DNA of 64,000 nucleotides from Desulfomicrobium macestii (lineage in GTDB: Bacteria; Desulfobacterota; Desulfovibrionia; Desulfovibrionales; Desulfomicrobiaceae), in the NCBI RefSeq assembly GCF_014873765.1, contig NZ_JADBGG010000020.1, positions 1 to 64,000 of the forward strand, written 5' to 3'. A program made the translations under genes and the position numbers. The notes under the pieces are model-generated. The model was not told the origin of the DNA and made no database searches. It was given only the letters and a program-made list of their open reading frames with translations. Shown piece after piece: positions 1,070-30,136 of this stretch; within the stretch, counting starts at the first letter, position 1, and each line of letters opens with the position of its first letter.

Positions 1070-1590
1070 ACATACTAAATGCTGCGCTCAATTGGTATAA
1101 GTGTAAAACTAATCCGGTAAAGTATGCTCGAAGTTTGGGTGTTAATATAGGACAAGAATGTCGATTAATTAATATAAAACCAGGTTTTGGAACTTTTGGA
1201 TCAGAGCCGTATTTAATAACAATTGGCAATCATGTAACTATAACTGCAAATGTTCAGTTTGTAACTCATGATGGAGGTGTATGGGTGCTACGGTTGAAGG
1301 ATCCTGCATTAGACGTATTTGGTGAAATACTTATAGGTAGTAATGTATTTATCGGGTATGGCGCTATTATTATGCCGAATGTGCAAATTGGTAATAATGT
1401 TGTAGTTGGAGCTGGAACAATTGTTACAAAAAATGTTCCTGATAATGTTGTTGTAGCTGGAGTTCCTGCTAAAATAATTTGCACTTTAGATGAATATAAA
1501 AAGTCAGTTCTAAAAAACTGTTTCAGGATTAATCATTTGTCTGCTAATGAAAAGAAAAAATTTTTAATAGAAAAATTTAAAAAATTATGA
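1066..1590 (+). CDS. Hexapeptide-repeat acyltransferase (WcaF/LbH type)
   Basis: A 174-residue left-handed beta-helix acyltransferase, probably O-acetylating a sugar of the polysaccharide. Hexapeptide turns are visible from about residue 80 to 135 (IGSNVFIGYGAIIMP, IGNNVVVGAGTIVTKNVP), followed by the common ending VVVAGVPAKII. A candidate active-site histidine sits in FVTHDGG near residue 66. The start is the ATG overlapping the flippase stop (ATGA); the TTG upstream would only add residues that overlap more of that gene. It ends with another ATGA overlap into the next glycosyltransferase, so the genes are translationally coupled. The AT-rich composition matches the rest of this subcluster. 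Acceptor and acyl donor cannot be told from sequence. Confidence 0.8.
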   Translation: MNILNAALNWYKCKTNPVKYARSLGVNIGQECRLINIKPGFGTFGSEPYLITIGNHVTITANVQFVTHDGGVWVLRLKDPALDVFGEILIGSNVFIGYGAIIMPNVQIGNNVVVGAGTIVTKNVPDNVVVAGVPAKIICTLDEYKKSVLKNCFRINHLSANEKKKFLIEKFKKL

Positions 1591-2678: not shown

Positions 2679-2858
2679 AAATTTTTATTAACATTAAATC
2701 TTAAAAAATACTGAATTTTGCAAATTTGCTATGCTGTTATCATTGAACTTTTTACTCTTAGAACTGACTTGAGCATGAATTCTTTATACTCAAAATTCTG
2801 GTGGACACGATGCTAATTTCTATTGATGAGGTTGAGTCTATTTTATTTGGATATAAAC

Positions 2859-4010: not shown

Positions 4011-4063
4011 TTTTTACTTTATTATTTTTAAAAAATATATATTTAATCTGAGAGGCTTATATT

Positions 4064-5212: not shown

Positions 5213-5293
5213 ATAATAACGTTGGTAGAGATTACTTGCTGATTCAATGTGCGTAACCAAACATAATATTCCAGCCACAATCGAGAATTTAAA

Positions 5294-7423: not shown

Positions 7424-7445
7424 AGTATATACTATGTAGATACTT
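7423..7445. promoter_or_regulatory. Inverted-repeat operator of mazEF
   Basis: A 23-bp inverted repeat with arms AAGTATNTAC and GTANATACTT around a 3-bp centre. It begins at the last base of the upstream stop codon and lies 17 bp before the mazE start. Position and symmetry suit the autoregulatory MazE/MazEF binding site. Confidence 0.6.
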
Positions 7446-7462
7446 TAAGCCGGGAGGATGGC

Positions 7463-7702
7463 ATGGAAGCAAAAACCGTCAAATGGGGCAACAGTCTGGC
7501 GCTCAGAATACCAAACGCGATCGTCAAGGATTGCGGCCTTGCCGAGAACACGCTCGTCGATATCTCATTCAGAAAGGGCGAGATCGTCATCAGGCCCATG
7601 CGCAAGCAATATGCGCTGTCCGAGCTGCTGGCCGGAATAACCCCTGAGAATATTCATGGCGAGGTCGGCATGGGTGAACCCGTGGGTCAGGAGCTGTTGT
7701 GA
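7463..7702 (+). CDS. mazE: MazE-type antitoxin
   Basis: A 79-residue AbrB/MazE swapped-hairpin DNA-binding antitoxin. The N-terminal signature KWGNSLALRIPNAIV is the classic MazE barrel motif, and the acidic C-terminal half should wrap the toxin. A GGGAGG ribosome site precedes the ATG. The stop overlaps the toxin start (TGATG). A symmetric operator lies just upstream. The pair is inserted between two polysaccharide genes, probably as a stability cassette. A diverged paralogue is at 19150-19389. Confidence 0.9.
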   Translation: MEAKTVKWGNSLALRIPNAIVKDCGLAENTLVDISFRKGEIVIRPMRKQYALSELLAGITPENIHGEVGMGEPVGQELL

Positions 7703-8037
7703 TGTACGTTCCCGATCGTGGTCATGCCGTATGGATGAATTTCAACCCCCAGGCCGGACATGAACAGGCTGGCCATCGCCCGGCGCTGGTGATCTCGCCC
7801 GCTTCGTATAACGGGCGGACGGGGCTGCTCCTGTGCTGCCCGATCACGAGCCAGATCAAGGGGTATCCTTTCGAGGTGAAGATCGAGGGCAATCCATCGA
7901 TCTCGGGGGTTGTGCTGGCGGATCAGATCAAGAACCTGGATTGGCGGGTGCGGGGCGTGAAGTTTGTGACCGAGGTGGACGACTCCGTGCTCGAAGAGGT
8001 TTTGGCCAAGTTCGAAGCGCTGTTGCGCTTGGAATAA
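7702..8037 (+). CDS. mazF: MazF-type endoribonuclease toxin
   Basis: An 111-residue toxin of the CcdB/PemK fold that cleaves mRNA at short sequence motifs. It follows E. coli MazF closely: the start YVPDRGHAVWMNFNPQAG, EQAGHRPALVISP, the catalytic-loop CCPITSQIKGYPFEV, and GVVLADQIKNLDWR. All landmark positions are intact. I use the ATG at 7702; a GTG at 7699 is also possible. The next polysaccharide gene starts two bases after its stop, so the module sits within a continuous transcription unit. Confidence 0.92.
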   Translation: MYVPDRGHAVWMNFNPQAGHEQAGHRPALVISPASYNGRTGLLLCCPITSQIKGYPFEVKIEGNPSISGVVLADQIKNLDWRVRGVKFVTEVDDSVLEEVLAKFEALLRLE

Positions 8038-8039
8038 GC

Positions 8040-9710
8040 ATGAGTCGCGCGCAAGGCTTCAGCCTGCCTGGTCAGATGCGCCTCCTGCGCACGGTATCCC
8101 ACCTCAAGTTTCGGCAGATCTTTTTCCAGCTTCTGCGCCGCTTGGAGCCGAAGAGGCGGGTGTCCGTTCCCGTGGGCATTTCTCCCAGACCGGGCCTGTC
8201 CCTGACGCCGCCACTGCCGCGCGACTGTGGCGGCGAGCCCTGGGCCTTCACCTTCATAGGCGTACGCAAGAGCTTCGACCCCGCCCGTTTCGATTGGGCG
8301 AGCTTGGAACAGGACAAGCTCTGGCGCTACAACCTGCACTATTTCGATTACCTGCATGAACCGGAGCGCAGCAACGGGCCGGAGCTGATCGAGAGCTGGA
8401 TTGCGTCCAACCCGCAGGGCAGGATGGATGCCTGGGAGCCGTTTCCGGTCTCGCTGCGGCTCGTCAACTGGATCAAGTTTTTCCTGTCGTCTGCCGCGCC
8501 GTCCCCGGTGCCTGCGTCGTGGCTGGACAGCCTGGCTCTGCAGGCCCGCTGGCTCTCCAAAAATATCGAATACCATCTGCTGGCCAATCACTATTTCAAG
8601 AACGCCAAGGCTCTTGTCTTTGCGGGGGGCTTTTTCGACGGCGTGGATGCGCGGCGCTGGCTGAACCTTGGTCTGCGCATTGTGTCCGAAGAGCTGGCCG
8701 AACAGGTTCTGGTCGACGGCGGGCATTTTGAGCGCAGCCCCATGTACCACTGCATGATCCTGGAGGACTGCCTTGACCTATTGAATCTGTGCCGGGGCAG
8801 CGGGTTGCCGGAGCTGACTGAGCTTGCGCGGGAACTGGAACGCGTGATCCCGGCCATGCTTTGCTTTGCCGGGGGCCTGACCCATCCTGATGGCGGCATT
8901 GCCCTGTTCAATGACGCGGCGCTCGGCATCGAGCCTGATTTCGCGCAGCTTCGGGATTATCATGAGCGGCTTGGAGGGGATCCAATAGCGCAGCCGATGG
9001 CGCGTGTTCTGCCCTTTCCCGCAAGCGGATATTTCCGGCTTGAACCGATGCCCGGTGACATGCTGGTCGTGGACTGCGGCCCAATCGGCCCGGACTATCA
9101 GCCGGGGCACGCGCACTGCGACATCTTGAGCTTTGAACTGTCCTTGAACGGGCGGCGGGTCATCGTGGATTCCGGGTGCAGCCAGTATGTGGACGGCGAA
9201 ATCCGCCAGTACAACCGGGGTAGCTTGGGCCACAATACGCTGAGCATCGACGGCGTGAATCAGTCCGAAGTGTGGGGGGCGCACCGGGTGGCCCGCCGCG
9301 CAAGGCCGCTCTTTGCAGAGGCAAGGGATGACGGCGACACGCTGATTTTCGAAGGGGCTCACGATGGCTACAAGCGCCTTCCGGGCAAGCCGATACACAA
9401 GCGGCGCATTGTCTGGTCCGGCGGACGCATCGAGATCCGCGATCAGGTGGAAGGGCAGGGCGAGCACATGTTGGAACTGCGCTTGCACGTCCACCCGGAC
9501 TGGACTGTGGAGTCCAGCCAATCAGGACTCGTGATCCTGAAGCTGGGGAAGGAGCGCCTCTGCGTTGTATCGACGCTGGGCGATCTGGAACTTGAGCGGG
9601 GCTGGTATTGTCCGCGATTCGGGCAGCCATTGCCGTGTGCCGTGCTTTGCGTGCGCCAGCGGGCGGTTCTGCCCTGGACTGGCGGTTTTGTCATGACCAA
9701 GGAGAGCTGA
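8040..9710 (+). CDS. Heparinase II/III family protein
   Basis: A 556-residue protein with an N-terminal alpha-toroid (YNLHYFDYLHE near residue 90, NHYFKNAKAL near 180) and a C-terminal beta-sandwich with the family features GHAHCDILSFELS and YNRGSLGHNTLSIDG. Members are polysaccharide lyases or lyase-like proteins; those inside polysaccharide clusters may trim or modify uronate-containing glycans. There is no clear signal peptide, so cytoplasmic action or unusual export is possible. It begins at the ATG two bases after mazF. An earlier in-frame start would overlap the toxin gene and is not used. Confidence 0.86.
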   Translation: MSRAQGFSLPGQMRLLRTVSHLKFRQIFFQLLRRLEPKRRVSVPVGISPRPGLSLTPPLPRDCGGEPWAFTFIGVRKSFDPARFDWASLEQDKLWRYNLHYFDYLHEPERSNGPELIESWIASNPQGRMDAWEPFPVSLRLVNWIKFFLSSAAPSPVPASWLDSLALQARWLSKNIEYHLLANHYFKNAKALVFAGGFFDGVDARRWLNLGLRIVSEELAEQVLVDGGHFERSPMYHCMILEDCLDLLNLCRGSGLPELTELARELERVIPAMLCFAGGLTHPDGGIALFNDAALGIEPDFAQLRDYHERLGGDPIAQPMARVLPFPASGYFRLEPMPGDMLVVDCGPIGPDYQPGHAHCDILSFELSLNGRRVIVDSGCSQYVDGEIRQYNRGSLGHNTLSIDGVNQSEVWGAHRVARRARPLFAEARDDGDTLIFEGAHDGYKRLPGKPIHKRRIVWSGGRIEIRDQVEGQGEHMLELRLHVHPDWTVESSQSGLVILKLGKERLCVVSTLGDLELERGWYCPRFGQPLPCAVLCVRQRAVLPWTGGFVMTKES

Positions 9711-9713
9711 CGC

Positions 9714-10973
9714 GTGCATATTCTTTTCCTGTGCCACTATTTTCCGCCCGAGGTGAACGCCCCAGCCTCGCGCACCTATGAGAACGCCAAGCGCTGGGTG
9801 CGGGCCGGGCACAAGGTCACGGTCCTGACCTGCCACCCGAGCCATCCGGGCGGCGTGGTCTATCCGGGTTTTAAAAACTCGGTTCATGCATGGGAAGAGA
9901 AGGACGGCATCCGGGTACTCAGGGTGGGCACCTATTTGAGCGCGAACAAGGGCTTTGTGAAGCGCACGGCCAACTATGTATCCTTCATGCTCTCGGCCAT
10001 TGCGCAGTGCTGGCGGGTGAAGGACGTGGATCTTGTTGTCTCGACATCGCCCCAGTTCTTCTGCGGCATGGGCGGGTATTTTGTGTCCCGCTTCAAGGGC
10101 TGCCCTTGGGTGCTGGAGATCCGCGACCTGTGGCCCGAATCCATCATTGCCGTGGGCGCCATCACGAATCGTCGCGTGATCAAGGCTCTCGAAGGGATTG
10201 AGAGTTTCCTGTACCGCAAGGCCGACCATATCATTTCCCTGACCAACGCCTTCAAGCGCCACATCATGGGCCGGGGCATCGCGGCGGAGAAGATCAGCGT
10301 CGTGACCAACGGCGCGGATCTGGAACGCTACAGTCCGGGCGAGCGCATGAACGAGGCGCGCAAGGAATTGGGGCTGGGCGCGGACGTGTTTCTGGCCTCC
10401 TATATCGGCACCCACGGCATGGCCCACGGCCTGGGAACCATCCTGCGCGCGGCCAAGCGCCTTGAGAACGAGCCGAACATTCGTTTTCTGCTGGTGGGTG
10501 ACGGGGCGGAACGGGAAAAGCTGCTGAGCGAAAAGGAGGCCCTGGGCCTGCACAACGTCATCATGCGTGGGCAGCAACCCAAAGAGCGTATGCCGGAGTT
10601 TCTGGCCGCAAGCGATGCCTGCCTGGTGCTGCTCATCAAATCGGAGCTCTTCAAGACAGTGCTCCCGTCCAAGATTTTTGAAGCCATGGCCATGAAACGC
10701 CCCATCATCCTGGGCGTGGAAGGCGAGAGCCGCGAACTGGTGGACGAGGGGGCCTGCGGCCTGTGCATTGAGCCGGAGAACGACCAGGAGCTGGCCGAGG
10801 CGGTGCTGAGACTGGCGCGGGAACCAGAGTTGGCGGCACAGCTTGGCGACCGGGGCGCGGAGTTTGTGGCGCGGCGGTTTGATCGCGAAGTGCTGGCGAT
10901 GGCGTATTTGGGGGTGCTGGAAGAGGTGGCGCGGGGTGATGGTGTGACGGTTTCAGCGGAGGCCGTGAGTTGA
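9714..10973 (+). CDS. GT4 family glycosyltransferase (WbuB/WcaI-like)
   Basis: A 419-residue GT-B glycosyltransferase. Its start (HILFLCHYFPPEVNAPASR) and the central LEIRDLWPESI match the WbuB/WcaI branch, which transfers amino-deoxy or fucose-type sugars. The donor domain has YIGTHGMAHGLG and the C-terminal EAMAMKRPIILGVEGESREL. It starts at GTG 9714, three bases after the heparinase gene, so it is co-transcribed. The presence of a UDP-GlcNAc 2-epimerase next door suits an amino-sugar donor, but the specificity is inferred. Confidence 0.87.
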   Translation: MHILFLCHYFPPEVNAPASRTYENAKRWVRAGHKVTVLTCHPSHPGGVVYPGFKNSVHAWEEKDGIRVLRVGTYLSANKGFVKRTANYVSFMLSAIAQCWRVKDVDLVVSTSPQFFCGMGGYFVSRFKGCPWVLEIRDLWPESIIAVGAITNRRVIKALEGIESFLYRKADHIISLTNAFKRHIMGRGIAAEKISVVTNGADLERYSPGERMNEARKELGLGADVFLASYIGTHGMAHGLGTILRAAKRLENEPNIRFLLVGDGAEREKLLSEKEALGLHNVIMRGQQPKERMPEFLAASDACLVLLIKSELFKTVLPSKIFEAMAMKRPIILGVEGESRELVDEGACGLCIEPENDQELAEAVLRLAREPELAAQLGDRGAEFVARRFDREVLAMAYLGVLEEVARGDGVTVSAEAVS

Positions 10974-10984
10974 GACTGGGGGGA

Positions 10985-11010
10985 CTGGTGAATTGTGAAT
11001 GGTGAATGGA
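10985..11010 (+). repeat. Dispersed GTGAATGG repeat, short copy
   Basis: Carries GTGAATTGTGAATGGTGAAT, the core of a short repeat also found near 12220, 17170, 19045 and 21480. It lies between the glycosyltransferase and the epimerase genes. Confidence 0.6.
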
Positions 11011-11074
11011 AAGATATTTTATCCGCGCACTCATTTTTTAAATTTCCGGCGCAATGCGCCAAAGGTGACATTTG

Positions 11075-12229
11075 ATGAAAATCATCTCCGTGGTGGGCGC
11101 TCGCCCCAATTTCATGAAAATCGCGCCCTTCGCGAAGGCCATAAGCGCGCATAATTCCGCCGATCCAGACCGGCCCATCGAACACATCCTCGTCCACACC
11201 GGCCAGCACTACGACGTACGCATGTCCGAAGGCTTCTTCCACAGCCTCGGCATCCCGGACCCGGACATCAATTTGGAGATAGGGTCTGGTTCCCATGCCG
11301 AACAGGTCGGGCAAACCATGATCGCCTTTGAAAAGGTGATCCTTCAGGAAAAGCCCGACTGGGTCGTGGTGGTGGGGGATGTCAACGCCACACTGGCCTG
11401 TTCGGTTGCGGCCAAGAAGCTGTGTGTCAAAGTCTGTCATATCGAGGCCGGTCTGCGCAGCGGCGACATGACCATGCCCGAGGAGGTCAACCGACTGGTC
11501 ACCGATCGCCTGAGCGATCTGCTGCTGACTCCAGACGCCATTTCCGGTCATAACTTGCGGGCGGAAGGCGTCTCCGAGGAGAAGATCCGTTTTGTCGGCA
11601 ACATCATGATCGACACTCTGGAAGCCAACCGCGACAAGGCCGCGCAACTCTCCATGGAAGACATTCTGCGCGAGAACCTGCTCCTGCCCGAGAAGGAAAC
11701 CCCTGCCGTGGACTTGTCCGGAGACTTCGCGCTCCTGACCATGCACCGCCCCTCCAACGTGGATCAAAAAGAGGTGCTGGAGCCTATCCTGAACTTCCTC
11801 ACGGGCGAAGTCGCCCCCAGAATGCCGATCATCTGGCCGATCCATCCGCGAGCCCGGAAGATGCTGGAAAACTTCGGACTGTGGGAAAAAGCCGTGGCCT
11901 GCGCAAACCTGGTCCTGTTGCATCCCATCGGCTACCACGAAATGCTCCGCCTCAACATGCAGGCCAGCATCATGCTGACGGACAGCGGCGGCCTTCAGGA
12001 GGAATGCTGCGTCCTGGGAACGCCCTGCCTGACGTTGCGCTGGAACACCGAACGCCCAGTGACCCTGAAGGAACACGGCGGAGCCAGTGTGCTGGTGGGG
12101 AACAATGTGGAGCGGATTCGCGAGGAATTTCACACGGCATTGGAGAGCGACAGGATGCCACAGCGGCCGGAGTTGTGGGACGGGTTGACGGCGGCGCGGT
12201 GCGTTTCTTGGTTGGTGGATAGTGAGTAG
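11075..12229 (+). CDS. wecB: Non-hydrolysing UDP-N-acetylglucosamine 2-epimerase
   Basis: A 384-residue WecB-family enzyme interconverting UDP-GlcNAc and UDP-ManNAc. Conserved elements in order: VVGARPNFMK at the N-terminus, HTGQHYD, VVGDVNATLA, CHIEAGLRSGDMTMPEE, LTMHRPSNVD and TDSGGLQEECC. The ATG at 11075 has an AAAGGTG site upstream. It supplies an amino-sugar precursor for the polysaccharide. Its last residues and stop codon are encoded by the first bases of a dispersed repeat (12217 onward), so the C-terminus was probably altered by repeat insertion. Confidence 0.94.
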   Translation: MKIISVVGARPNFMKIAPFAKAISAHNSADPDRPIEHILVHTGQHYDVRMSEGFFHSLGIPDPDINLEIGSGSHAEQVGQTMIAFEKVILQEKPDWVVVVGDVNATLACSVAAKKLCVKVCHIEAGLRSGDMTMPEEVNRLVTDRLSDLLLTPDAISGHNLRAEGVSEEKIRFVGNIMIDTLEANRDKAAQLSMEDILRENLLLPEKETPAVDLSGDFALLTMHRPSNVDQKEVLEPILNFLTGEVAPRMPIIWPIHPRARKMLENFGLWEKAVACANLVLLHPIGYHEMLRLNMQASIMLTDSGGLQEECCVLGTPCLTLRWNTERPVTLKEHGGASVLVGNNVERIREEFHTALESDRMPQRPELWDGLTAARCVSWLVDSE

Positions 12230-14296: not shown

Positions 14297-14665
14297 CGTT
14301 TTATGCTTGGGCGGAGTGAGGTTTTTTCGGATGTGAGGGATGGCGCTTGTCTTGTCTGATCGGACTTCGCCAATCTCCTGTGCAGGCCTCGGGCAGTGCG
14401 TCCGTAAATACCCCTGGACTTGGTCCTGGCCGAGTCGCGCAGATTTTTTCGTTGCTTATCAGATTTGACTATCCTCAAGATACCGGTGTGTTGTCTGTGA
14501 ATTCATCAAGTGCGTCATCTCAAGCTTCTGGTTTTGTCTTCTCGGAGGCGCCGGAAGTTGTTGCCAGTGCGCTGTTGTTGGCGAATGTCGGTATAAATTT
14601 TGTATACTGACTGATGATGAATTGAAACTATGCGGCGATCAATCCTTAAGATGGGCGAGGTTCCA
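14297..14665. other. Intergenic leader of the first sorted protein
   Basis: Holds one copy of the 17-bp island motif (14349-14365). I found no clear sigma-54 core here; near-matches have the wrong -24/-12 spacing. A weak AT-rich stretch near 14590 could serve a housekeeping sigma factor. No gene is visible. Confidence 0.4.
14349..14365 (+). promoter_or_regulatory. 17-bp island motif, site 1
   Basis: GTCTTGTCTGATCGGAC. It differs from sites 2 and 3 at a single base. It lies 300 bp upstream of the VPLPA-type gene at 14666 and is a candidate activator binding site. Confidence 0.6.
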
Positions 14666-15337
14666 ATGAGCCGGATTCGGTATATTAAAATGTTGGCAGC
14701 GGTGGCCGTGTTTGCGCTTCTTGTTCCTGCCTTGGCAAGCGCGAATGTTTCAACAACCTTTGTCGGTTTTCAGGCCGAAATACATACAAACGGCGAGCAA
14801 TTTGCGATCAGGAACATCTCTGACACCGCCACCATTACAGAGGTTCAGCTGACGTTGGGTACAGGAGCTTTGTTTGCTTCAGATTCCTTTTCGGTAGCAG
14901 GATTGACGGTTACACACTTTGCCGATGAGTCTCTGTACCCATCATGGGAAAACGCATTTACAACTGGCCTGACTTCAGTCGGTTATAATTCTGCTGTACT
15001 TTCTTCCGATATGAAGACAGCGACATTCTCGTTTACAAATTTTATTGCATCAGAAACGGATTTTGAGAGCGGTGAATCCTGGGGTGTTACATTTGGATTG
15101 ACAGACATTGACGGTGACAGTGTGGGCGGTGCTGATATGAACTATGCCAAAATCGCAGTCACCTATGCAAATCCGGATGGAATACTCACCTATCTGTACG
15201 GAACATTTAACGGGAATAAACAATCCTTCCCTGCAGAAGTTGGAGAGTTGAGAGCCGTTCCAATCCCCGGCGCGGCCCTGCTCCTTGGTCCGGCCCTCCT
15301 CGGCTTGGTCGCGTTGCGGCGAAGAGAACTGGTCTGA
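14666..15337 (+). CDS. VPLPA-CTERM sorted secreted protein
   Basis: A 223-residue exported protein. It has an N-terminal signal peptide (MSRIRYIKMLAAVAVFALL, cleavage after ALASA) and a C-terminal tripartite sorting signal: VPIPGAA, a hydrophobic helix, then the basic RRREL end. This is the VPLPA variant recognised by XrtD-type exosortases, one of which is at 23230. The body is beta-rich with no named domain. The ATG at 14666 follows a GAGG site; the upstream ATG at 14630 would bury the signal peptide. A strong terminator follows. It is probably anchored or released at the cell surface after exosortase processing. Confidence 0.8.
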   Translation: MSRIRYIKMLAAVAVFALLVPALASANVSTTFVGFQAEIHTNGEQFAIRNISDTATITEVQLTLGTGALFASDSFSVAGLTVTHFADESLYPSWENAFTTGLTSVGYNSAVLSSDMKTATFSFTNFIASETDFESGESWGVTFGLTDIDGDSVGGADMNYAKIAVTYANPDGILTYLYGTFNGNKQSFPAEVGELRAVPIPGAALLLGPALLGLVALRRRELV

Positions 15338-17247: not shown

Positions 17248-17931
17248 CTATGCCGCGAATTTTCTGCGGATGCCGACCAGGCCGAGGAGCGCCGGAGCGA
17301 GCAGCATGGCTGCGCCGGGGATGGGAACGGCATTGGTGCGGACGATCAGGTCTTGGAAGTTACCCTCAATCCCATCGTGCAACTGAATATTTGGCATGAG
17401 AATCTGATAGTTCAGGCCAAGGCCTAGGCTTGTTAGTTCGGCGAGTGATTTGGATGCGGCTAAGGATATCATCTCATCATAAAGAGTTTGGACGCTTTCA
17501 GGTTGGGTGATTGGGGTCCACTGATTTTCTGTGCCCAGCAGTCTCCATATCGAAGCCTGCAACGCCGTGATCGTGTCGCGATTATCGTCGCCGCTTAACC
17601 CGTTATAACCACCTGTATTAAAAGCGTACTCTTCCATGAGCCAAGCCGCTCTGTATTCTCCAAGTGTTGAAATCGCTTTGCTTGTAAATTCGTATTTATT
17701 GTTAAGATAAATAGTTTCGTCAAATTTTGCACAATATCCAAAAGTGTCCGTCACTCCTTGAAAACTAGCGCTAAAATTTATGTTAAACTCCGCATACGGT
17801 TCCCAATTAGATCCAGTATTTGCGGGTGTCCCCTCGTCAATTGTAAAATCGAAATACACTGCGGCATGTGCACTTGCTGAAAACAAGAGCAGCGTCATTC
17901 CAATAAAAAGGACAGTCATTTTTCGGTACAT
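17248..17931 (-). CDS. VPLPA-CTERM protein with thioester-like domain
   Basis: A 227-residue exported protein with a signal peptide (MTVLFIGMTLLLFSASAHA within the first 23 residues) and the sorting tail VPIPGAAMLLAPALLG ending in RRKFAA. The body has the two landmarks of thioester (TQXA-like) domains: Cys67 in TFGYCAKF and Gln125 in TALQASIWRLL, with RAAWLMEEYAF between. In Gram-positive adhesins such a Cys-Gln pair forms an internal thioester that binds host surfaces; bond formation here is inferred. It is a homologue of the 19760 gene. A sigma-54-like promoter and an island motif lie upstream. Confidence 0.8.
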   Translation of the reverse strand: MYRKMTVLFIGMTLLLFSASAHAAVYFDFTIDEGTPANTGSNWEPYAEFNINFSASFQGVTDTFGYCAKFDETIYLNNKYEFTSKAISTLGEYRAAWLMEEYAFNTGGYNGLSGDDNRDTITALQASIWRLLGTENQWTPITQPESVQTLYDEMISLAASKSLAELTSLGLGLNYQILMPNIQLHDGIEGNFQDLIVRTNAVPIPGAAMLLAPALLGLVGIRRKFAA

Positions 17932-19759: not shown

Positions 19760-20404
19760 ATGAGATTAAAATTGATCTGTTTTATGATGATTGCAGCGAT
19801 GCTCTTGGGCATTGGCAGCGCTTGGGCTTCGGTGGTTAATGTGGACTATGGAACCACGTATTCTTACTGGGCAAGTAATGGTCAGTATCTGCCGACAACC
19901 CAATTTTCATTAGATATTGATGGTTTCAGTACATATGGATTCTGTGTGGACCCAATTAGCTCTATTGGAAAAGGTAATTATTCTTATAGCTTTTTATCAT
20001 GGACTCCTGAGTTTCTACAAGCTGCGTGGCTTATGGATAATTATGCACGATTCGAAGGTGCAATTAATACTCGGAGTGAAACAGTAGGGCTCCAAGCATC
20101 CATTTGGTCTGCTGTCACGAATTTAAATTATAAGCCAGTATTTAATACTAGAGGTCAAAGATCCACTTATGAAAGTTGGTTTGGAAGCATTTTGGATTCT
20201 TTGGATGACCAAACTTTGGCGAATCTGCAGTCTGAATACAAAATTTTACTCCCGTTCCTGACTACCGCCTCAGGTAAGGTGCTTAACAAGCAGGCTCTCA
20301 TCGTCAAATATCACTCTTCACCAGTCCCAATCCCCGGCGCAGCTCTGCTTCTGGGCAGCGCCCTGATCGGCATGGTCGGAGTGCGGAAGAAGTTCATGGC
20401 CTGA
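19760..20404 (+). CDS. VPLPA-CTERM protein with thioester-like domain
   Basis: A 214-residue exported protein, homologous to the one at 17248. It has a signal peptide (MRLKLICFMMIAAMLLGIG, cleavage after AWA) and the sorting tail VPIPGAALLLGSALIG ending RKKFMA. The putative thioester pair is Cys62 (TYGFCVDPI) and Gln112 (VGLQASIWSAV), with the conserved QAAWLMDNYARF in between. GC is lower in the body than in the tail. A GAGGG ribosome site precedes the ATG. Likely a surface-exposed, possibly covalently reactive adhesin-like protein; chemistry is inferred. Confidence 0.82.
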   Translation: MRLKLICFMMIAAMLLGIGSAWASVVNVDYGTTYSYWASNGQYLPTTQFSLDIDGFSTYGFCVDPISSIGKGNYSYSFLSWTPEFLQAAWLMDNYARFEGAINTRSETVGLQASIWSAVTNLNYKPVFNTRGQRSTYESWFGSILDSLDDQTLANLQSEYKILLPFLTTASGKVLNKQALIVKYHSSPVPIPGAALLLGSALIGMVGVRKKFMA

Positions 20405-20827: not shown

Positions 20828-21373
20828 ATGAAAAAGGTTGCTTTGCTGACGATTGGTTTGTTGATGGTTTGTAATTTTGCATTTGCGGCTATTCATCCTA
20901 TTGATACAACTACTGGTTCGAATTTTGATGTTGGTGAATTAGTAATTTCAGATATTTATTATGGTAAAGGTGATATTATCGGTGATCATGGTACTGAATT
21001 TACCCATATATATAATTTTAGTGTAAGTACTGATTTTTCTTTCGGTTTTGGTATGAATAATAGTCCAAATATTCAAACTGTTCCTTTTATAAATACAACT
21101 TTTGATTTTTTGGATTTGGAAGATTCTTACAATGCTAATTTATATAGTAGTAATGGTGGTGATTCTATCATTGGAGGGAAAACTTTTGCAAAAGATTTTT
21201 TGGATGCAGGCAGTTATTATTTAAAATTAATTGGAACAACTAGTGGAACGGATGGTGGTTCCTATAATGTCAGTTTTGCTGCCTCCAACCCCGTCCCCGT
21301 CCCCGCCGCCGCCCTCCTCCTCGGCGCTGGCCTGCTCGGCATCGTGGGTATTCGTCGCAGACAGATTTCCTAG
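20828..21373 (+). CDS. VPxPA-CTERM sorted protein with AT-rich body
   Basis: A 181-residue exported protein with a signal peptide (MKKVALLTIGLLMVCNFAFA) and the tail NPVPVPAAALLLGAGLLG ending RRRQIS. The body, with FTHIYNFSVSTDFSFGF and a late GSYYLKLIG, resembles FxDxF-type PEP-CTERM proteins, which are beta-sandwich surface proteins; the match is partial. The first 460 bases are strongly AT-rich, while the last 70 bases that encode the sorting signal are very GC-rich, as if a foreign passenger had been joined to a resident tail. A purine-rich ribosome site precedes the ATG. Confidence 0.78.
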   Translation: MKKVALLTIGLLMVCNFAFAAIHPIDTTTGSNFDVGELVISDIYYGKGDIIGDHGTEFTHIYNFSVSTDFSFGFGMNNSPNIQTVPFINTTFDFLDLEDSYNANLYSSNGGDSIIGGKTFAKDFLDAGSYYLKLIGTTSGTDGGSYNVSFAASNPVPVPAAALLLGAGLLGIVGIRRRQIS

Positions 21374-22135: not shown

Positions 22136-22852
22136 ATGAAAAATTTATTCATTGCGATCGTTTTTCTGTCGATGTCTGTCTATTGCGTGAATGCGAATGC
22201 CTTGTCGTATACTTCCTTGGGATTCGATTACAATGCAGATATTCAGACCTATGGGTTTATTTCAGGCAGTCTGTTTCCTGAAGGAGACCTTAATCTGGGC
22301 GGAGTTCCGTTTTCCGTTCCATCCGGAACGGATTTGAATATTTGGCATAGTGAAATCGGTTCAACTTCTGGTTCCAAATCCTTGTCCGTGGATATCGGTC
22401 TGTCTGGTGTTGACAAGGTATATACCATCATCAACACCTATTGGGGGGAGAGCAGCCCGGGTTCGTTTGCGTATATTGAATTTGAAGGGGCCGGAGGAGC
22501 TTACTATCAGTATCTTCTCGATGGAAACTTCAACATCAGGGATTATTTCGGTGGGACGTATACGAATTCGTTGACCTCTCCTGATGCCGCCAATGTGTGG
22601 ACAGAGAGTGGAGTCAGGCTTGATATGCAGACCATCGACCTGCCGGACGCCTTCCTCTTCGAGGACCAAATCGCCATGACCTTGGTGGATAACGGCGCGA
22701 CCGGTTTCCAAAGGACATTTCTGTACGGCCTGACTGTGGGCACCCAGAACGGCGGCGGCGGCCCAAGCACGGTCCCCGAACCAGCCACCATCATCCTGCT
22801 CGGCGCCGGACTCCTGGGCCTGGCGGGCATCCGGCGGAAAATGACAAGCTGA
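22136..22852 (+). CDS. Classical PEP-CTERM sorted protein
   Basis: A 238-residue exported protein with a signal peptide (MKNLFIAIVFLSMSVYCVN, cleavage near ANA) and the tail VPEPATIILLGAGLLGLAG ending RRKMTS. The tail is the standard PEP-CTERM signal (VPEP), unlike the VPxPA tails of its neighbours. The body is a beta-rich domain of about 190 residues with a Gly/Asn linker before the tail. It carries a strong AAGGAGG site. With a single exosortase in the window, either XrtD accepts both tail types or another exosortase is encoded elsewhere. Confidence 0.8.
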   Translation: MKNLFIAIVFLSMSVYCVNANALSYTSLGFDYNADIQTYGFISGSLFPEGDLNLGGVPFSVPSGTDLNIWHSEIGSTSGSKSLSVDIGLSGVDKVYTIINTYWGESSPGSFAYIEFEGAGGAYYQYLLDGNFNIRDYFGGTYTNSLTSPDAANVWTESGVRLDMQTIDLPDAFLFEDQIAMTLVDNGATGFQRTFLYGLTVGTQNGGGGPSTVPEPATIILLGAGLLGLAGIRRKMTS

Positions 22853-23229: not shown

Positions 23230-24780
23230 ATGCCTCGAATCAATTGGCCGGGATGGGGTGCCGGTTTGGCCCTCGTGGCTTTTGTCCATCATGCGGTCAT
23301 CATCCGGTTGGTGGGCAACGAGTGGGGCAGGGCGGATTTTGACTACTGCTACCTGATACCCCTCGTCATGGCCTACCTTGTCTGGGAGCGACGCGGCGAG
23401 CTTGCTGCCATCCCCTCCAGGGCTTCCTGGGCCGGGCTGTGGGCCTTTGGCGCGGCCGTGTTCTTCCTGCTGCTGGGCGAGCTTGGCGGGGAGTTTCTGT
23501 CCCTGTACATTTCGCTGTGGTTCGCCATCCTCGGCGTGTGCTGGACCCTGCTCGGCGGGCGCAAGCTCAAGGTCATCCTCTTCCCCCTTGCCCTGCTGCT
23601 CATGGCCTTCCCGCCACCTAATTACCTTTACGGCCGCCTGACCCTGGGCATGCAGCTCCTTTCCACGCGCATCGGGGTGGAATTTTTGCACCTGCTTGGC
23701 CTGCCCGCCTTTCGCGAGGGCAACGTCATCGACATGGGCTTTACCCAGCTTGAGGTCGTGGCCGCCTGTTCGGGGCTGCGCTTTCTCATCCCCCTGGCCA
23801 TCGTGGGCATGCTGCTGACCTACTATTTCCGGGAAACGTGGTGGAAGCGGACCCTGCTCATGCTCTTCACCCTGCCCCTGGCCATCGTCATGAACGGGCT
23901 GCGCATCGGGGTCAGCGGCGTGCTGGCGCGCAGTTACGGGCCCGGCATCCTGGAGGGGGCGGCGCACGACACCATGGGCTGGGTCATGTTCCTGGTCTCG
24001 GCCGTGATCCTGCTGGGGTGCATGAAGCTCATGACCGCCAGGGGAAAGCCCATGCTGGTCGTCTTTGCGCCGGTGTCCGGCAGTCCCGCCATCGCGCGGG
24101 TTTCGCTCATGCCGCTTTTGGCCGGTCTGGCGCTTCTGGCGGCCACGAACGGGTATCTGCAATATCGGGCCATGACCCCGGACGTGCTGCCCACGGCCCG
24201 TCCCCTGTCGGCCTTCCCCGTGCGTCTGGGAGAGTGGGAGGGGGTGCGCGTGCCCATGGAGCGAAAGTTCATCGATGAACTCGATTTCACGGATTACGTG
24301 CAGGTCGATTTTCGCAATGGCGGGCAGCGGGCCGTGGATTTCTACGTGGCCTGGTACGACCGGCAGAGCAAGGGCGAGTCCATCCATTCCCCCGAGACCT
24401 GCCTGCGCGGCGGCGGCTGGCGCTTCGAGCGCGACGGGGCGGTGGAGGTTGCCGTGCCGGGCTACAGGACGGTGCGCGTCAATCGCACCATGCTGGAGCA
24501 GAACGGCCGGCGCATGCTCTCCTATTTCTGGTTCCCGGCCCGTGGCCGCTACCTGACCAACGGGGTGGAGCTGAAGCTCTACACCATGTGGGATTCGCTG
24601 ACGCTGCGGCGCACCGACGGCGCGCTGGTCCGGCTCATCACGCCCCTGTATCCCGGCGAAGGGGAGGCGGACGCGGAACGGCGGCTGGTCGATTTTCTGG
24701 CCGTGGCCCTGCCGCCCCTCGAAAGGATGCTGCCGGGCAGGGACCCCGTGCCCGAAGCCATGAACAGGCAGGCGCCATGA
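23230..24780 (+). CDS. xrtD: Exosortase D fused to an EpsI domain
   Basis: A 516-residue protein. Residues 1 to about 285 form the eight-helix exosortase, a membrane transpeptidase that cuts VPxPA/PEP-CTERM tails. The catalytic triad is visible: Cys180 in VVAACSGLRFL, Arg225 in MNGLRIGVSG and His246 in EGAAHDTMGW. Residues about 300-516 are an EpsI-like periplasmic domain with ESIHSPETCLRGGGW. This fusion is typical of VPLPA-specific exosortases (XrtD). GGAG precedes the ATG. It overlaps the next gene by ATGA, forming an operon with a WecA-like enzyme. A near-perfect sigma-54 promoter lies upstream. Confidence 0.93.
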   Translation: MPRINWPGWGAGLALVAFVHHAVIIRLVGNEWGRADFDYCYLIPLVMAYLVWERRGELAAIPSRASWAGLWAFGAAVFFLLLGELGGEFLSLYISLWFAILGVCWTLLGGRKLKVILFPLALLLMAFPPPNYLYGRLTLGMQLLSTRIGVEFLHLLGLPAFREGNVIDMGFTQLEVVAACSGLRFLIPLAIVGMLLTYYFRETWWKRTLLMLFTLPLAIVMNGLRIGVSGVLARSYGPGILEGAAHDTMGWVMFLVSAVILLGCMKLMTARGKPMLVVFAPVSGSPAIARVSLMPLLAGLALLAATNGYLQYRAMTPDVLPTARPLSAFPVRLGEWEGVRVPMERKFIDELDFTDYVQVDFRNGGQRAVDFYVAWYDRQSKGESIHSPETCLRGGGWRFERDGAVEVAVPGYRTVRVNRTMLEQNGRRMLSYFWFPARGRYLTNGVELKLYTMWDSLTLRRTDGALVRLITPLYPGEGEADAERRLVDFLAVALPPLERMLPGRDPVPEAMNRQAP

Positions 24781-26444
24781 ATTTTCTGGTCAGCTTCTAC
24801 ATCGCCTTTCTGCTCTCGACGCTGCTGGTCCCTGTCGGCATCCGTCTCGGGCGACGCTGGGGCATCGTGGACAAGCCGGACCCGCGCAAGGTGCACACAG
24901 GCCTCATCCCGCGCACAGGCGGCATGGCCATCGCACTGGCCACGGTGGTCTCCCTGCTCGTGCCCCTGAACATGTCCCGGGAGCTGTCCGGATACCTGGG
25001 CGGGGGGCTCGTGATCCTCGTCTTCGGCATGTGGGACGACATGCGCGAGCTTGGCTACCGCATCAAGTTCTTCGGGCAGATCCTGGCCATCCTGTTCTTC
25101 ACCCTGGTCTCGGGCATTCAGGTCACCTGCCTCGGCGAACTCCTGCCGGGACTCGTCGTGCATCTGGGGCCGGCGTCCATCGTGCTGACCATCATCTTCA
25201 TGCTCGCGGTCATCAACATCATCAACCTGAGCGACGGCCTGGACGGCCTGGCGGGTGGGCTGTCCCTGCTCATCCTGCTGGCCTGCGCCTTTCTGGGCTA
25301 TATCCAGGAGGCGGTGCTGCCCATCGCCATCACCCTGGCCGTGTGCGGGGGGCTGGTCGGATTCATGCGCTACAACGTGCATCCGGCGGAAGTGTTCATG
25401 GGCGACACGGGCAGCCAGTTCCTGGGCTTCACCATCGGCGCGTGCCTGATCATGCTGACCCAGAACCACTCCATCTACACGCCCATCCTGCCCCTGTTTC
25501 TTCTGGGCACGCCCATCCTCGACACGGCCATGGTCATGTACGAGCGCATCCAGGCCGGGCAGAGTCCGTTCAAGCCGGACAAGAACCATCTGCACCACAA
25601 GCTGCTGCGCGCCGGTCTGACCCAGGAGCAGGCCGTGGTCAGCATCTATTTTTTCCATTTCACACTCATCCTGACCGGCTTTGCCCTGCGCTTTGTGGCC
25701 GACTATGTGGGCCTGCTGCTCTACGCGCTCATTCTGGGAGCGGGGTTCGCGTTCAGGTCTGCGGTGCAGGGCAAGGATGTCAGCGCCGGGAAACTGTATG
25801 CGTCCATAAAGAGCGTGGTCCAGGCGGTCTTTGTCTGGAACACGAAAAGCGTCAATGTGCGCCATTGCCTGTCCTGGCTGTGCTGGAAAAGTTTTTTCCT
25901 GCTCTTCACCTTCTTCTTTTTCACGAACGTCTATTTCATCCGTCATGCTCCGCTGCCGACGGCGCTGGTCGCCCTGGCCGTGCTTGGGATATTGGCCCTC
26001 CTGTACTGGAAAAAAACCGCAGTGCTGGTGCCGTTCATGTACTACGCGATGCTGGCCGTCATTTTGTACGTGGTCGTCTTCGGAGAAGTGATAAAGGCGG
26101 ACAGCGTCTTTCTGGTCATGGGGCCGGACGGGGTGACCGGCATTTTTTATGCCCTGAGCGCGCTGTATTTCGCCTGCATCATCCTGACTCCGGAGAAGGT
26201 GCCGCTCAATGCGCTCGACTACATCCTCATTGCCTTCATCAGTTCCCTCGCGTTGATGTCCGAAGGTCACGCGGAGCTTTTCGAGCTCAGGCAGATTGCC
26301 ATGAAGGCCGTGCTGCTGGGGCTGGGGCTGAACCTGATCTATTCGCGCATCAGCAGAAACAGGGACTATGTGCTCTTCCTGCTGGCCCTGCTCTGCCTGG
26401 AGGCGCTGGTTCTGGCCGTGACCTCCGGCGCGCTCTTGCGATGA
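24777..26444 (+). CDS. WecA/MraY-family sugar-phosphate transferase with membrane extension
   Basis: A 555-residue polytopic protein. Residues 1-330 are an undecaprenyl-phosphate hexosamine-1-phosphate transferase: Asp87-Asp88 in FGMWDDMRE, INIINLSDGLDGLAGG near 145, VFMGDTGSQFLGF near 208 and KNHLHHKLL near 270. All catalytic motifs are intact. Residues about 340-555 add some seven more hydrophobic segments with no domain I recognise. It would start a glycan on lipid carrier; its coupling to xrtD by a four-base overlap suggests that this glycan is the partner or acceptor of the sorted proteins (inference). It is longer than normal WecA (about 360). Confidence 0.88.
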   Translation: MNFLVSFYIAFLLSTLLVPVGIRLGRRWGIVDKPDPRKVHTGLIPRTGGMAIALATVVSLLVPLNMSRELSGYLGGGLVILVFGMWDDMRELGYRIKFFGQILAILFFTLVSGIQVTCLGELLPGLVVHLGPASIVLTIIFMLAVINIINLSDGLDGLAGGLSLLILLACAFLGYIQEAVLPIAITLAVCGGLVGFMRYNVHPAEVFMGDTGSQFLGFTIGACLIMLTQNHSIYTPILPLFLLGTPILDTAMVMYERIQAGQSPFKPDKNHLHHKLLRAGLTQEQAVVSIYFFHFTLILTGFALRFVADYVGLLLYALILGAGFAFRSAVQGKDVSAGKLYASIKSVVQAVFVWNTKSVNVRHCLSWLCWKSFFLLFTFFFFTNVYFIRHAPLPTALVALAVLGILALLYWKKTAVLVPFMYYAMLAVILYVVVFGEVIKADSVFLVMGPDGVTGIFYALSALYFACIILTPEKVPLNALDYILIAFISSLALMSEGHAELFELRQIAMKAVLLGLGLNLIYSRISRNRDYVLFLLALLCLEALVLAVTSGALLR

Positions 26445-26739: not shown

Positions 26740-26845
26740 TTTGAACGCTTTTAATTGCTGGCCGGTGCGGGTGCCAAGCGGCTCCGGCGCTTGAAAGACC
26801 GCACTTGCGGAGACTTTGATCGATACACATTCGAAGGAGAGCTGC

Positions 26846-29206
26846 ATGCAGCGGGTTCTATGTTGTTTGCTCATGGCCATGATGCTTTTTGCCTGCGGAT
26901 CCAAGGAGAACCGCAGGGACGATTTTTACGCCAACGGCCTGGGGTTCGAGGAGAGCGGGCGGTATTCCGAGGCCCGGGTCGAGGCCAAGAACGTCATCAA
27001 GCTCGACCCCAACCATGTCGGCGCGTATCTGCTCCTGGCCCGTTGCGCCCTGAAGGATCAGAACTGGCGTGAAGCCTTCGGGAATTTTCAGCGCGCGGCG
27101 GAGCTTGAGCCGGACAATGCCGAGGCCCTGCTCGGGGTGGGGCGGTTGTACCTGCTCTCCGGCGATACAGGCGAGGCCGAAGCGCATGCGGAAAGGATCC
27201 TGGCCAAGGACCCGGCGTCTGTTGACGGACTGCTGCTGCGGGCCGGTGCCATGCTGCGCGGCAAGCGTTTCGACGAGGCCCGAAAGCAGCTCGACGTGGT
27301 CTTTGCGGGGGATCCGGCCAATGAGGACGCGCTGCTGGCGCTGTCGGTCATCCACGCCGAGCAGGGTCAGGGCGCCGAAGCCCTGGCCGTGATTGGCGCG
27401 GGGCTGGTCGCAAGGCCGGACAGCCGGCCGCTGCATTTCAGGGCCGCGAACCTGGCGGCGGACATGGGCGATTATGCCGTGGCCGAAGAGCATCTCCTGA
27501 AGCTCAAGGAGCTCGATCCGGGCAACCGGGGCGTGCAGGTCCTGTTGGCCGCGCTTTACGAACGCATGGGGCTGACCGCGCGGGTGGAGGGCATCCTGCG
27601 TGAGCTGCTGGCGGCCGAGCCCGAATCGGAAGAGGCGCGGCTGCGTCTGGTCGAGTATCTGATGCGCCACGACAAGGCCCAAGACGCCCTGGCCGTGGCC
27701 GGGGAAGGGCAGCCTGCGCCAAGGCTGCGTCTGGCGTCCGCCGGGGTGCTCATGGCCATGGGGCGGGCCGGGGAAGGCGAGGCCGCGCTGGTCGCGCTGA
27801 CCCAGGACGCCGAGGCGGGACCGTCCGGTATCGAGGCCCGGCTCCGGTTGTCCGAGCTCAAGTTGCGTCGTGGCGACCGGAGCGGAGCCCTGGTCGAGGT
27901 GGACGAGGTGCTGCGCCTCAATCCCGCCGATGCCCGGGCCCATGCCGCGCGCGGCCGGATATTCATGCTCCAGGGGCGCTTCGAGGAAGCCCTGACCGAG
28001 CTGCGAATAGCTCTGCACGACGCTCCCGGGGACATGGCCGTAGCCGTGCTCATGGCCCGCGCCCAGTTCGCGCTGGGCAACACGCTGTCCGGGGTGGAGT
28101 CGCTGCGCAATTTTCTTCTGAAGAATCCGGACGCCCTGCCCGTGCGCCTGGAACTGGCCGCGCACCATCAGCGTGCGGGCGAGCCCGACGCCGCGCTCAG
28201 CGTGCTGCAGGACGGCGGGATTGACGGGGTCATGCCTGCGCGGCTGCTGCTGGCCATGGGCGATATCGAGGCCCGGCGCGAACATTTCGATGCGGCCGAG
28301 GTTCATTACCGGCGGGCCGCGCAAGAACAGGAGGCGCTGGTGCCCGCCCTGCTGCGGCTTGGGAGCATGCAGGGCAGCCGCAAGGACTGGGAAGGGGCGC
28401 GGCGCACCTTCGACGAACTGCTGCTGGCCAATCCGGACGCCCACGGCGGCGCCGAGGGCGTGGTGGCCGTGGAACTGGCGGCGGGGCGCGGCGAGGCGGC
28501 CCTGGCCTGGGCCGAAGAGCGGGCGACGTCCCGGTCCGAGGACCCGCTGGCCGCGGACCTGCTCGGCCGTACGGCCCTGCGCCTGGGCGACGCCGGTGGT
28601 GCCGAGAAGGCATTTCGCGAGGCCCAGCGGCGCGCCCCGGAGTGGTCCGTGCCCTCGGCCAGGCTGGCGGGACTGTATGCGTCCACAGGCCGCAAGGACA
28701 CAGCCATGGCCGAGTGCCGCGCCGCTCTGGACAAAAATCCGGACTCCGTGCCCGAAGCCCTGCTGCTCGGCCAGTTGCTGCAACTGGGCGGAGATGCGGC
28801 CGAGGCCGAGACCATCTATCGCAAGCTTCTGGCCCGTCACCCCGAACTGCTGCCCGCGGCCAACAATCTGGGCTATCTGCTGGCCTCTCATGACGCGCCC
28901 ACAACGGAGCAGCTGACCGAAGCCCTGACCCTGGCCACCAAGGCCAGCGCGGGCGGCGACCCGTCGGCGCTCGATACGGTGGGCTGGGTGCATTATCGCC
29001 TGGGCGACAAGGACGCGGCCTTGCAGTTTCTGCGCAAGGCCCACGAGTCCCTGCCCGAGGATTCGGCCGTGACCTTTCATCTGGCTCAGGTGCTGGCTGA
29101 TCTGGGGCAGACCGCGGAAGCGCGCACCCTGCTCAGGGCCCTGCTGGCCCGCGCCCAGGATTTCCCGGATCTGCCCCAGGCCAGGTCGTTGCTGGACGGA
29201 ATCTGA
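26846..29206 (+). CDS. PrsT-like TPR-repeat lipoprotein of the exosortase system
   Basis: A 786-residue protein with a lipoprotein signal peptide (CLLMAMMLFACGSKE, lipobox LFAC) and then tandem tetratricopeptide repeats to the C-terminus; repeat signatures such as AEAHAERILAKDP, AEEHLLKLKELDPGN and AEKAFREAQRRAPEW recur about every 34 residues. It matches the PEP-CTERM-system TPR lipoprotein type (PrsT), usually encoded with exosortases and thought to scaffold export or assembly. The ATG at 26846 follows AAGGAGAG; a start at 26816 would hide the signal peptide. It is very GC-rich, so long antisense frames arise over it that are not genes. Confidence 0.87.
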   Translation: MQRVLCCLLMAMMLFACGSKENRRDDFYANGLGFEESGRYSEARVEAKNVIKLDPNHVGAYLLLARCALKDQNWREAFGNFQRAAELEPDNAEALLGVGRLYLLSGDTGEAEAHAERILAKDPASVDGLLLRAGAMLRGKRFDEARKQLDVVFAGDPANEDALLALSVIHAEQGQGAEALAVIGAGLVARPDSRPLHFRAANLAADMGDYAVAEEHLLKLKELDPGNRGVQVLLAALYERMGLTARVEGILRELLAAEPESEEARLRLVEYLMRHDKAQDALAVAGEGQPAPRLRLASAGVLMAMGRAGEGEAALVALTQDAEAGPSGIEARLRLSELKLRRGDRSGALVEVDEVLRLNPADARAHAARGRIFMLQGRFEEALTELRIALHDAPGDMAVAVLMARAQFALGNTLSGVESLRNFLLKNPDALPVRLELAAHHQRAGEPDAALSVLQDGGIDGVMPARLLLAMGDIEARREHFDAAEVHYRRAAQEQEALVPALLRLGSMQGSRKDWEGARRTFDELLLANPDAHGGAEGVVAVELAAGRGEAALAWAEERATSRSEDPLAADLLGRTALRLGDAGGAEKAFREAQRRAPEWSVPSARLAGLYASTGRKDTAMAECRAALDKNPDSVPEALLLGQLLQLGGDAAEAETIYRKLLARHPELLPAANNLGYLLASHDAPTTEQLTEALTLATKASAGGDPSALDTVGWVHYRLGDKDAALQFLRKAHESLPEDSAVTFHLAQVLADLGQTAEARTLLRALLARAQDFPDLPQARSLLDGI

Positions 29207-29581: not shown

Positions 29582-30136
29582 ATGAAATCGGTGAAAATGT
29601 TTTTTGGGATGATGCTGTGCCTTGTGGTACTGGCGGGGCAGGCTCAGGCGGCTATTTCCGATGATATCGTCTTGAATTTTACGAATGTTGATAACACGTC
29701 TATCGTTGCATATGGAAATAGCGTGGGTGTCGAATTTACAGGTTGGTTAACGGTTGATGTTGGTTATCCAATTAGTGATATTGAAGGATTGAAGATAAGT
29801 CCAAGAACTCAAGAATCGATAGCTTCTATTGATTTTAGTTCGACAAGTTCAAATCCACCTCAGTTTAAATCACTTGCCTACTACGTTACTGGATCACCAG
29901 TTGATTATGTTCTTAATTTGTTGAGCGGTACAAGTAGTGTAGGAACTTTAAGTGGTGGGGATGTTTTGAGCTGGGCAGGAGCTTTTGTTAGCTCTATTGT
30001 TTTTACTGTGCCGGCATCTACAACTTTTTATATTGACGATGTCACGGTAACCCCCACCCCCCTCCCCGGTGCCGCCATCCTCCTCGGTTCCGGTCTTCTC
30101 GGTCTTGTGGGTCTGCGCCGCCGCGAGATCATCTGA
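29582..30136 (+). CDS. VPLPA-CTERM sorted protein with AT-rich body
   Basis: A 184-residue exported protein with a signal peptide (MFFGMMLCLVVLAGQAQA) and the tail TPLPGAAILLGSGLLGLVG ending RRREII. The body is a small beta-rich domain with no named family (FYIDDVTVTPT precedes the tail, as in many PEP-CTERM proteins). As in the 20828 gene, the passenger is AT-rich, while the final 80 bases are GC-rich with C-runs. A strong GGAGG site precedes the ATG. It is the last sorted protein of the island. Confidence 0.8.
   Translation: MKSVKMFFGMMLCLVVLAGQAQAAISDDIVLNFTNVDNTSIVAYGNSVGVEFTGWLTVDVGYPISDIEGLKISPRTQESIASIDFSSTSSNPPQFKSLAYYVTGSPVDYVLNLLSGTSSVGTLSGGDVLSWAGAFVSSIVFTVPASTTFYIDDVTVTPTPLPGAAILLGSGLLGLVGLRRREII

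Follow-up and report, generated by a model that had tools for sequence, protein, structure and literature searches.

The window analysed here comprises the first 64,000 nucleotides of contig NZ_JADBGG010000020.1 of Desulfomicrobium macestii (assembly GCF_014873765.1), in which the gene for an XrtD-EpsI fusion is directly followed by the gene for an extended WecA/MraY-like enzyme, referred to below as long WecA. Judging from sequence comparison, long WecA is probably the initiating phosphoglycosyl transferase (PGT) of an XrtD-linked exopolysaccharide locus, with its C-terminal extension forming an accessory module. Gene order, core motifs, conservation and co-inheritance were all observed in the genomes compared. 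The locus contains the following features:

23230..24780, + strand: XrtD-EpsI fusion (VPLPA-CTERM-specific exosortase with C-terminal EpsI/DUF3485), 516 aa; TIGR04152 and Pfam
24777..26444, + strand: extended WecA/MraY-like polytopic phosphoglycosyl transferase (long WecA), 555 aa; ATGA overlap with xrtD
24777..25751, + strand: catalytic core of long WecA, residues 1-325; Glycos_transf_4, TIGR02380 and MraY structure matches
25752..26441, + strand: C-terminal seven-segment membrane extension of long WecA, residues 326-555; invariant Asp481 (26217-26219)
26816..29206, + strand: PrsT, TPR-repeat protein of PEP-CTERM systems; TIGR02917, 315.1 bits (cut-off 312.2)

The fusion passes the curated threshold for XrtD (TIGR04152, 591.9 bits, cut-off 400), with Pfam matches to Exosortase_EpsH and to DUF3485 at residues 300-499. 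An earlier note on this DNA had described a four-base overlap between the two genes and an intact WecA/MraY core in the second, and both descriptions hold. The stop of xrtD-epsI and the start of long WecA share ATGA at 24777-24780, and an identical overlap, taken from mechanical open reading frame (ORF) ends, occurs in five relatives (G015, G014, G496, G491, and G389). Within the core, Glycos_transf_4 (PF00953) matches residues 72-227 with 125.7 bits (cut-off 27) and the solved MraY structures among PDB sequences align to residues 3-304. Asp87, Asp88, Asn147, Asn150, Asp153, Asp156, Asp210, His271, and His273 are identical in all 29 aligned sequences (that of the window plus 28 relatives), and His274 is present in 26. 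The PF00953 score and these catalytic Asp/Asn/His motifs place the protein among the polytopic phosphoglycosyl transferases; at 175.5 bits over residues 6-300 it falls under the TIGR02380 (WecA) cut-off of 326 and thus outside the E. coli-type WecA proteins. A Kyte-Doolittle scan finds nine hydrophobic segments in the core; WecA has eleven membrane segments, and the active site of MraY/WecA lies on the cytosolic side. A search of genome contigs for relatives returned two named ones only, the nearest being L053, a Desulfomicrobium metagenome-assembled genome (MAG), with 76% identity over the whole protein and 66% over the extension. None of 126 matching plasmid records holds a relative covering 80% of long WecA.

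Beyond the core, the picture of about seven hydrophobic segments without a known domain given in the earlier note is confirmed, the extension spanning residues 326-555 (230 residues) and its seven Kyte-Doolittle segments lying between residues 364 and 550. Searches of Pfam, NCBIfam, and PDB with residues 326-555, whether the query was the single protein, sets of 8 or 29 members, or a consensus sequence, gave no significant match; the best single-member E-values were 0.0043 (NCBIfam) and 0.0085 (Pfam), and the weak matches, each from one of the 29 members, included an XrtX-associated membrane protein (E 0.014) and DUF3792 (E 0.0085). The whole 555-aa protein likewise has no significant family match past about residue 305. 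Asp481 is the sole invariant residue of the extension (29/29), followed by Tyr426 in 23 sequences, Glu519 in 19 (otherwise Asn), and Arg422 in 18, with the protein of the window having Tyr422 and Asn519; the 29-sequence alignment contains no conserved His in the extension. Mean conservation per 25 residues is 0.31-0.42 from residue 326 to 550 vs. 0.44-0.73 in residues 1-325. Mean Lys+Arg counts in the successive loops of the extension are 7.3, 0.3, 2.0, 0.9, 2.3, 1.0, 2.1, and 0.1, so that this alternation, taken together with the cytosolic active side of the core, predicts that the extension starts near the cytosol and that its conserved polar residues also lie near it. The predicted cytosolic loops are those with 7.3, 2.0, 2.3, and 2.1 Lys+Arg and the predicted periplasmic loops, averaging 8-17 residues, those with 0.3, 0.9, 1.0, and 0.1; Asp481, Arg422, and Glu519 fall near predicted cytosolic ends of segments.

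The ratio of non-synonymous to synonymous substitution rates (dN/dS) between the window and its nearest relative G015 is 0.12 in the extension and 0.11 in the core, and 0.24 and 0.22, respectively, against G014. By these ratios, the extension is under purifying selection. Across 24777-26441, dS itself is higher in the extension than in the core (0.96 vs. 0.39 against G015; 0.99 vs. 0.44 against G014) at nearly equal dN/dS; possible causes of this more than 2-fold excess are recombination or a constraint on codon use in the core.

XrtD-EpsI is paired with an extended WecA-like enzyme, as the earlier note also proposed, in genomes across the phylum. Two samples were searched, one of 297 genomes from the class and one of 395 from the phylum. 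A first profile of the extension matched 12 of the 297 class genomes, 10 of them strongly (E 1.1e-41 or better), and the two matches at E 0.008-0.010 were set aside; XrtD was above cut-off in all 10 strong matches vs. 36/297 overall (hypergeometric 2e-10, ignoring kinship). In the phylum, a 9-row profile gave three matches at E <=0.01, namely the window's own, G474 (0.0096; set aside as a short frame), and G510 (0.0088), which has the gene order of the window (XrtD-EpsI, long WecA, PrsT) and, by eye, similar polysaccharide genes upstream. A 29-sequence profile, which was partly built from the XrtD loci of these genomes so that its sensitivity leans toward XrtD-linked forms, matched 47/395, 40 of them at E 1e-9 or better; seven weak matches of family f13, which cover just part of the domain at E 2e-4 to 8e-4, were excluded from the count. 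XrtD is over cut-off in 29 of these 40 strong carriers, which belong to 16 families, and in 42/395 genomes overall (odds ratio 69, without correction for kinship). Of the remaining 11 carriers, four have fused XrtD-like proteins below cut-off (G438, G442, G485, and G645), two have other exosortases (G553 and G657), and five have none. A chance arrangement is very unlikely because the extension recurs across the phylum and its dN/dS is 0.12, next to 0.11 in the core. As a separate observation, the WecA core and the extension lie in two overlapping frames in G678 (L171 7074-8725), either through an assembly frameshift or as a natural split gene.

XrtD in general is independent of the extension: in other XrtD branches, a WcaJ/WbaP-type enzyme occupies the slot between XrtD and PrsT or lies close to it. 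Many XrtD loci have such a transferase and lack the extension, which was therefore rejected as a universal feature of XrtD loci. XrtD exceeded its cut-off in 36 class and 42 phylum genomes (77 distinct), and neighbors were read for 76 (without G494), with many contigs ending within reach of XrtD. Within 6 kb of XrtD, the class genomes held long WecA in 6 cases, a WcaJ/WbaP-type gene in 24, and neither in 6; among this last group, long WecA lies 10.6-13.5 kb off in G191, G211, and G083 and on another contig in G003. The phylum genomes held WecA in 25 cases, a WcaJ-type gene in 6, and neither in 10 (one genome was not read); four of these 25 WecA genes are split or truncated at a contig end, that of G472 shows no extension, and five of the ten carry the extension elsewhere in the genome (G347, G354, G423, G598, and G617). 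WcaJ-type genes occupy the slot itself in 11 of the 24 class genomes and lie beyond PrsT in 13, which score only 165-206 bits against a profile built for this study; in the phylum, two of the six adjoin XrtD and four are short (204-244 aa) and 3-5 kb away. Two WcaJ-type slot proteins read in Pfam as Bac_transf plus CoA_binding_3. Even within the genus of the window, G001, G006, and G009 have a WcaJ/WbaP-type enzyme with a different XrtD branch, so that the difference extends to whole loci and is not the exchange of a single gene.

A quick XrtD tree (79 rows, of which 65 have a partner no more than 15 kb away; long branches, no bootstrap) needs 2 changes of partner type over the 65 labeled rows; with partnerless rows as a third state there are 15 changes against a shuffled mean of 34.6. 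One 43-row set of the tree contains 33 WecA rows, 10 without a partner in reach and no WcaJ, and another two WecA rows are placed next to four WcaJ ones. Among the phylum genomes, 29/32 with XrtD of at least 500 bits carry the extension (the misses being G426, G446, and G472), as against 0/10 at 400-500 bits, a split chosen once the data had been seen. Overall, one XrtD branch has largely kept the extended, presumably initiating enzyme across the phylum.

Eight further rows, termed B-type long WecA, come from loci whose sequenced stretches, as read here, contain neither XrtD nor PrsT. Against the 29-sequence profile, hhalign gave the B-type extension probabilities of 91% (local) and 95% (global) vs. 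0.9% or less for reversed, column-shuffled, and unrelated controls (best of 30 shuffled, 0.4%) and 12-72% for rotated B alignments, in which homologous blocks are kept. Smaller profiles of the window's type gave 1% (profile A1, 8 sequences) and 0.6% local and 2.8% global (10 sequences), and in hmmsearch four of the eight B sequences outscored all 167 shuffled or reversed controls, whereas the other four failed to do so. Exosortase is absent from four B-type genomes, three of them 94-98% complete (G016, G027, and G055) and one 85% complete (G059); the remaining four have an exosortase elsewhere in the genome. A remotely similar extension without exosortase indicates that the domain either predates the XrtD link or reaches beyond it. 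Other long WecA proteins (L048, L050-L052, and L023-L028) end in C-terminal domains of some 170-195 residues that look soluble, and were set aside; a Pfam scan of five such domains (L025, L028, L029, L048, and L050) gave no significant match.

How might such an enzyme work? By analogy with its family, the WecA-like core would, on the cytosolic side of the membrane, transfer N-acetylhexosamine-1-phosphate (HexNAc-1-phosphate) to polyprenyl phosphate, and the 230-residue C-terminal domain would act as an accessory module that may dock partners, pass on the polyprenyl-diphosphate-linked sugar (polyprenyl-PP-sugar), or regulate or dimerize the enzyme, and could thereby tie chain initiation to the PrsT/XrtD machinery. 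This combined reading is favored by core motifs kept in 29/29 sequences (His274 in 26/29), by an XrtD-PrsT slot that holds either long WecA or a WcaJ/WbaP-type enzyme, and by the UDP-GlcNAc 2-epimerase and glycosyltransferases upstream. It is also favored by the two partner changes needed on the tree, the 500-bit split in the phylum sample, the alternation of Lys+Arg along the extension, and the purifying selection on the extension.

Several points weigh against an accessory module of an XrtD-linked initiating enzyme. The TIGR02380 score of 175.5 assigns no sugar to the core, and AlphaFold2 models from three sequences (window, L053, and L054) reach a predicted local distance difference test score (pLDDT) of only 37 for the whole protein and 41 for the extension. 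The 500-bit split fails in the class, where G047 (615) and G035 (516) have WcaJ partners and G017 (446), G211 (494), and G083 (486) have long WecA. The extension is also carried by genomes without exosortase (G527, G656, G660, and the drafts G312 and G468) and therefore does not belong strictly to XrtD. In G656 and G660, PrsT lies near the gene together with genes that look export-like by eye, and three and one VPLPA-type tails, respectively, occur in the stretch read; as PrsT and tails are kept, the exosortase may just be absent from their assemblies. G527, which is 100% complete, has neither an exosortase nor a VPLPA tail over cut-off, and the proposition that the extension occurs only with exosortase was rejected on such carriers. 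The earlier note had named an extension in genomes without exosortases as evidence against its interpretation: this is what the remote members show (G527 and the B-type genomes G016, G027, G055, and G059), whereas the close members keep XrtD over cut-off in 10/10 strong class matches. Finally, the invariance of Asp481 and the frequency of Arg422 and Glu519 leave room for catalysis by the extension itself.

The extension could also, though this is rather unlikely, carry a second enzymatic activity at the cytosolic leaflet, for instance in modification of the polyprenyl-PP-sugar or in recycling of the carrier lipid. Asp481 (29/29), Arg422 (18/29), and Glu519 (19/29) would all lie near predicted cytosolic segment ends, on the same side as the active site of the core; however, one residue only is invariant in 29 sequences, the protein of the window has Tyr422 and Asn519 instead, and no enzyme family matched the extension significantly. 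The low conservation of the extension relative to residues 1-325 would also suit a plain membrane anchor or stabilizer without a specific partner, but the core is already polytopic and needs no anchor, and with a dN/dS of 0.12, an invariant Asp, and co-inheritance with one XrtD branch, we regard this as improbable.

The earlier note had suggested instead that the extension resembles a polymerase or ligase and attaches the glycan to sorted proteins. In the form of a Wzy/WaaL-like enzyme acting on XrtD-sorted proteins from the periplasmic side, this proposal is made very unlikely indeed by the data. Wzy/WaaL are also membrane proteins of polysaccharide loci, and they have a large periplasmic loop with catalytic His/Arg. 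A multi-span membrane domain within an exosortase/polysaccharide locus would fit, as would XrtD over cut-off in 29 of the 40 strong carriers, the lack of any Wzy_C protein closer than 300 kb to the locus in the single-contig genomes G015 and G011, and its absence from the contig of the window, whose start is cut. However, the extension has no Wzy_C match in Pfam, no conserved His, and by predicted topology no large periplasmic loop, the predicted ones being short, so that loop and His do not place it in Wzy/WaaL. Its lone invariant residue and the other conserved polar residues lie near the predicted cytosolic side, separate Wzy_C proteins occur 8 kb (G510) and 10 kb (G681) from XrtD in two of five genomes checked, extension-free XrtD loci exist, and remote relatives of the extension occur without exosortase.

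The accessory-module reading can also be set beside known systems. Long WecA is like WecA/MraY (PF00953) in its core domain and catalytic motifs and differs by 230 further residues with seven segments; polytopic transferases are given as "PGT only" in a table in the excerpted text of PMC10942596. The large monotopic transferases WbaP/WcaJ/EpsZ (Bac_transf plus CoA_binding_3) occupy, in other loci, that slot next to XrtD and PrsT and likewise carry accessory membrane and regulatory parts, although their catalytic fold is unrelated to that of long WecA. Those accessory parts are N-terminal and partly soluble, and that of WbaP is given a regulatory role, according to the same excerpt (PMC10942596); in the portion of PMC12802240 consulted, the initiating enzyme EpsZ is activated by its bound partner EpsW. 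By this analogy, the extension is a polytopic counterpart to the accessory domains that WbaP and other large monotopic transferases carry. The locus shares EpsH/EpsI, PrsT, polysaccharide genes, and tailed proteins with the PEP-CTERM/EpsH exosortase loci described in the available part of PMC1569441 (Haft et al., 2006), which lists PF02397 sugar transferases among the more weakly correlated families; in that part, an extended WecA is unmentioned and "undecaprenyl" occurs 0 times. Searches of an open-licence library on exosortases, XrtD, and VPLPA-CTERM turned up no description of the extension.

The remaining features around the locus are as follows:

119..12229, + strand: polysaccharide genes; Pfam/NCBIfam and hydrophobicity scan
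14630..15337, + strand: candidate XrtD substrate with VPIPGAALLLG...RRR tail; by pattern, no VPLPA-CTERM model match listed
17248..17931, - strand: VPIPGAAMLLA...RRK-tailed protein; by pattern, thioester domain (TED) 21.1, just under cut-off 22
19760..20404, + strand: VPIPGAALLLG...RKK-tailed protein; by pattern, no Pfam match
20828..21373, + strand: VPVPAAALLLG...RRR-tailed protein; by pattern, PF07589 17.2 bits, under cut-off 20.7
22136..22852, + strand: PEP-CTERM protein, VPEPATIILLG...RRK; PF07589 31.2 (cut-off 20.7), TIGR03370 22.8 (below 25.35)
29582..30136, + strand: TPLPGAAILLG...RRR-tailed protein; TIGR03370 17.3 bits, under cut-off 25.35

Six VPLPA/PEP-like tailed proteins thus flank the locus within 9 kb by pattern. 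NCBIfam searches of four of them gave TIGR03370 scores of 22.8 and 17.3 (cut-off 25.35) and no match for two, none passing VPLPA-CTERM; one tailed protein passes PEP-CTERM models (PF07589; TIGR02595). The start of PrsT is probably an in-frame ATG near 26846. The genes at 119..12229 encode an acetyltransferase, glycosyltransferases, Gfo/Idh/MocA and ADH-MocA proteins, a heparinase-like protein, and the UDP-GlcNAc 2-epimerase, and the protein at the contig edge has seven segments and is flippase-like by eye, with no NCBIfam match. The same genome carries a second exosortase with a separate EpsI (G000 contig C4, 139285-140645), 16 kb from a Wzy_C protein. Elsewhere in the window, a Phd/YefM-type antitoxin gene is followed by an overlapping PIN-domain gene (31096-31865), and relE-like and HTH proteins form, by eye, a pair-like arrangement (32188-32813). 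On the - strand at 43663-51303, a VgrG-like protein (49276-51303) is followed by 1218-aa and 406-aa proteins without a Pfam match, a gene set that looks like type VI secretion cargo with a companion.

We know of no account of what exosortases attach their substrates to. The extension might link initiation to sorting by binding XrtD-EpsI and presenting a polyprenyl-linked sugar as the acceptor for cleaved VPLPA proteins, which we consider decidedly unlikely; if it did, the sorted proteins would end on a glycan or glycolipid made by long WecA. With long WecA, a class of transferases tabulated as single-domain gains a large member that carries an additional domain. The existence of XrtD branches with unrelated initiating enzymes may offer a testable handle on whether the initiating enzyme, along with the extension, sets the sugar or lipid with which XrtD works.

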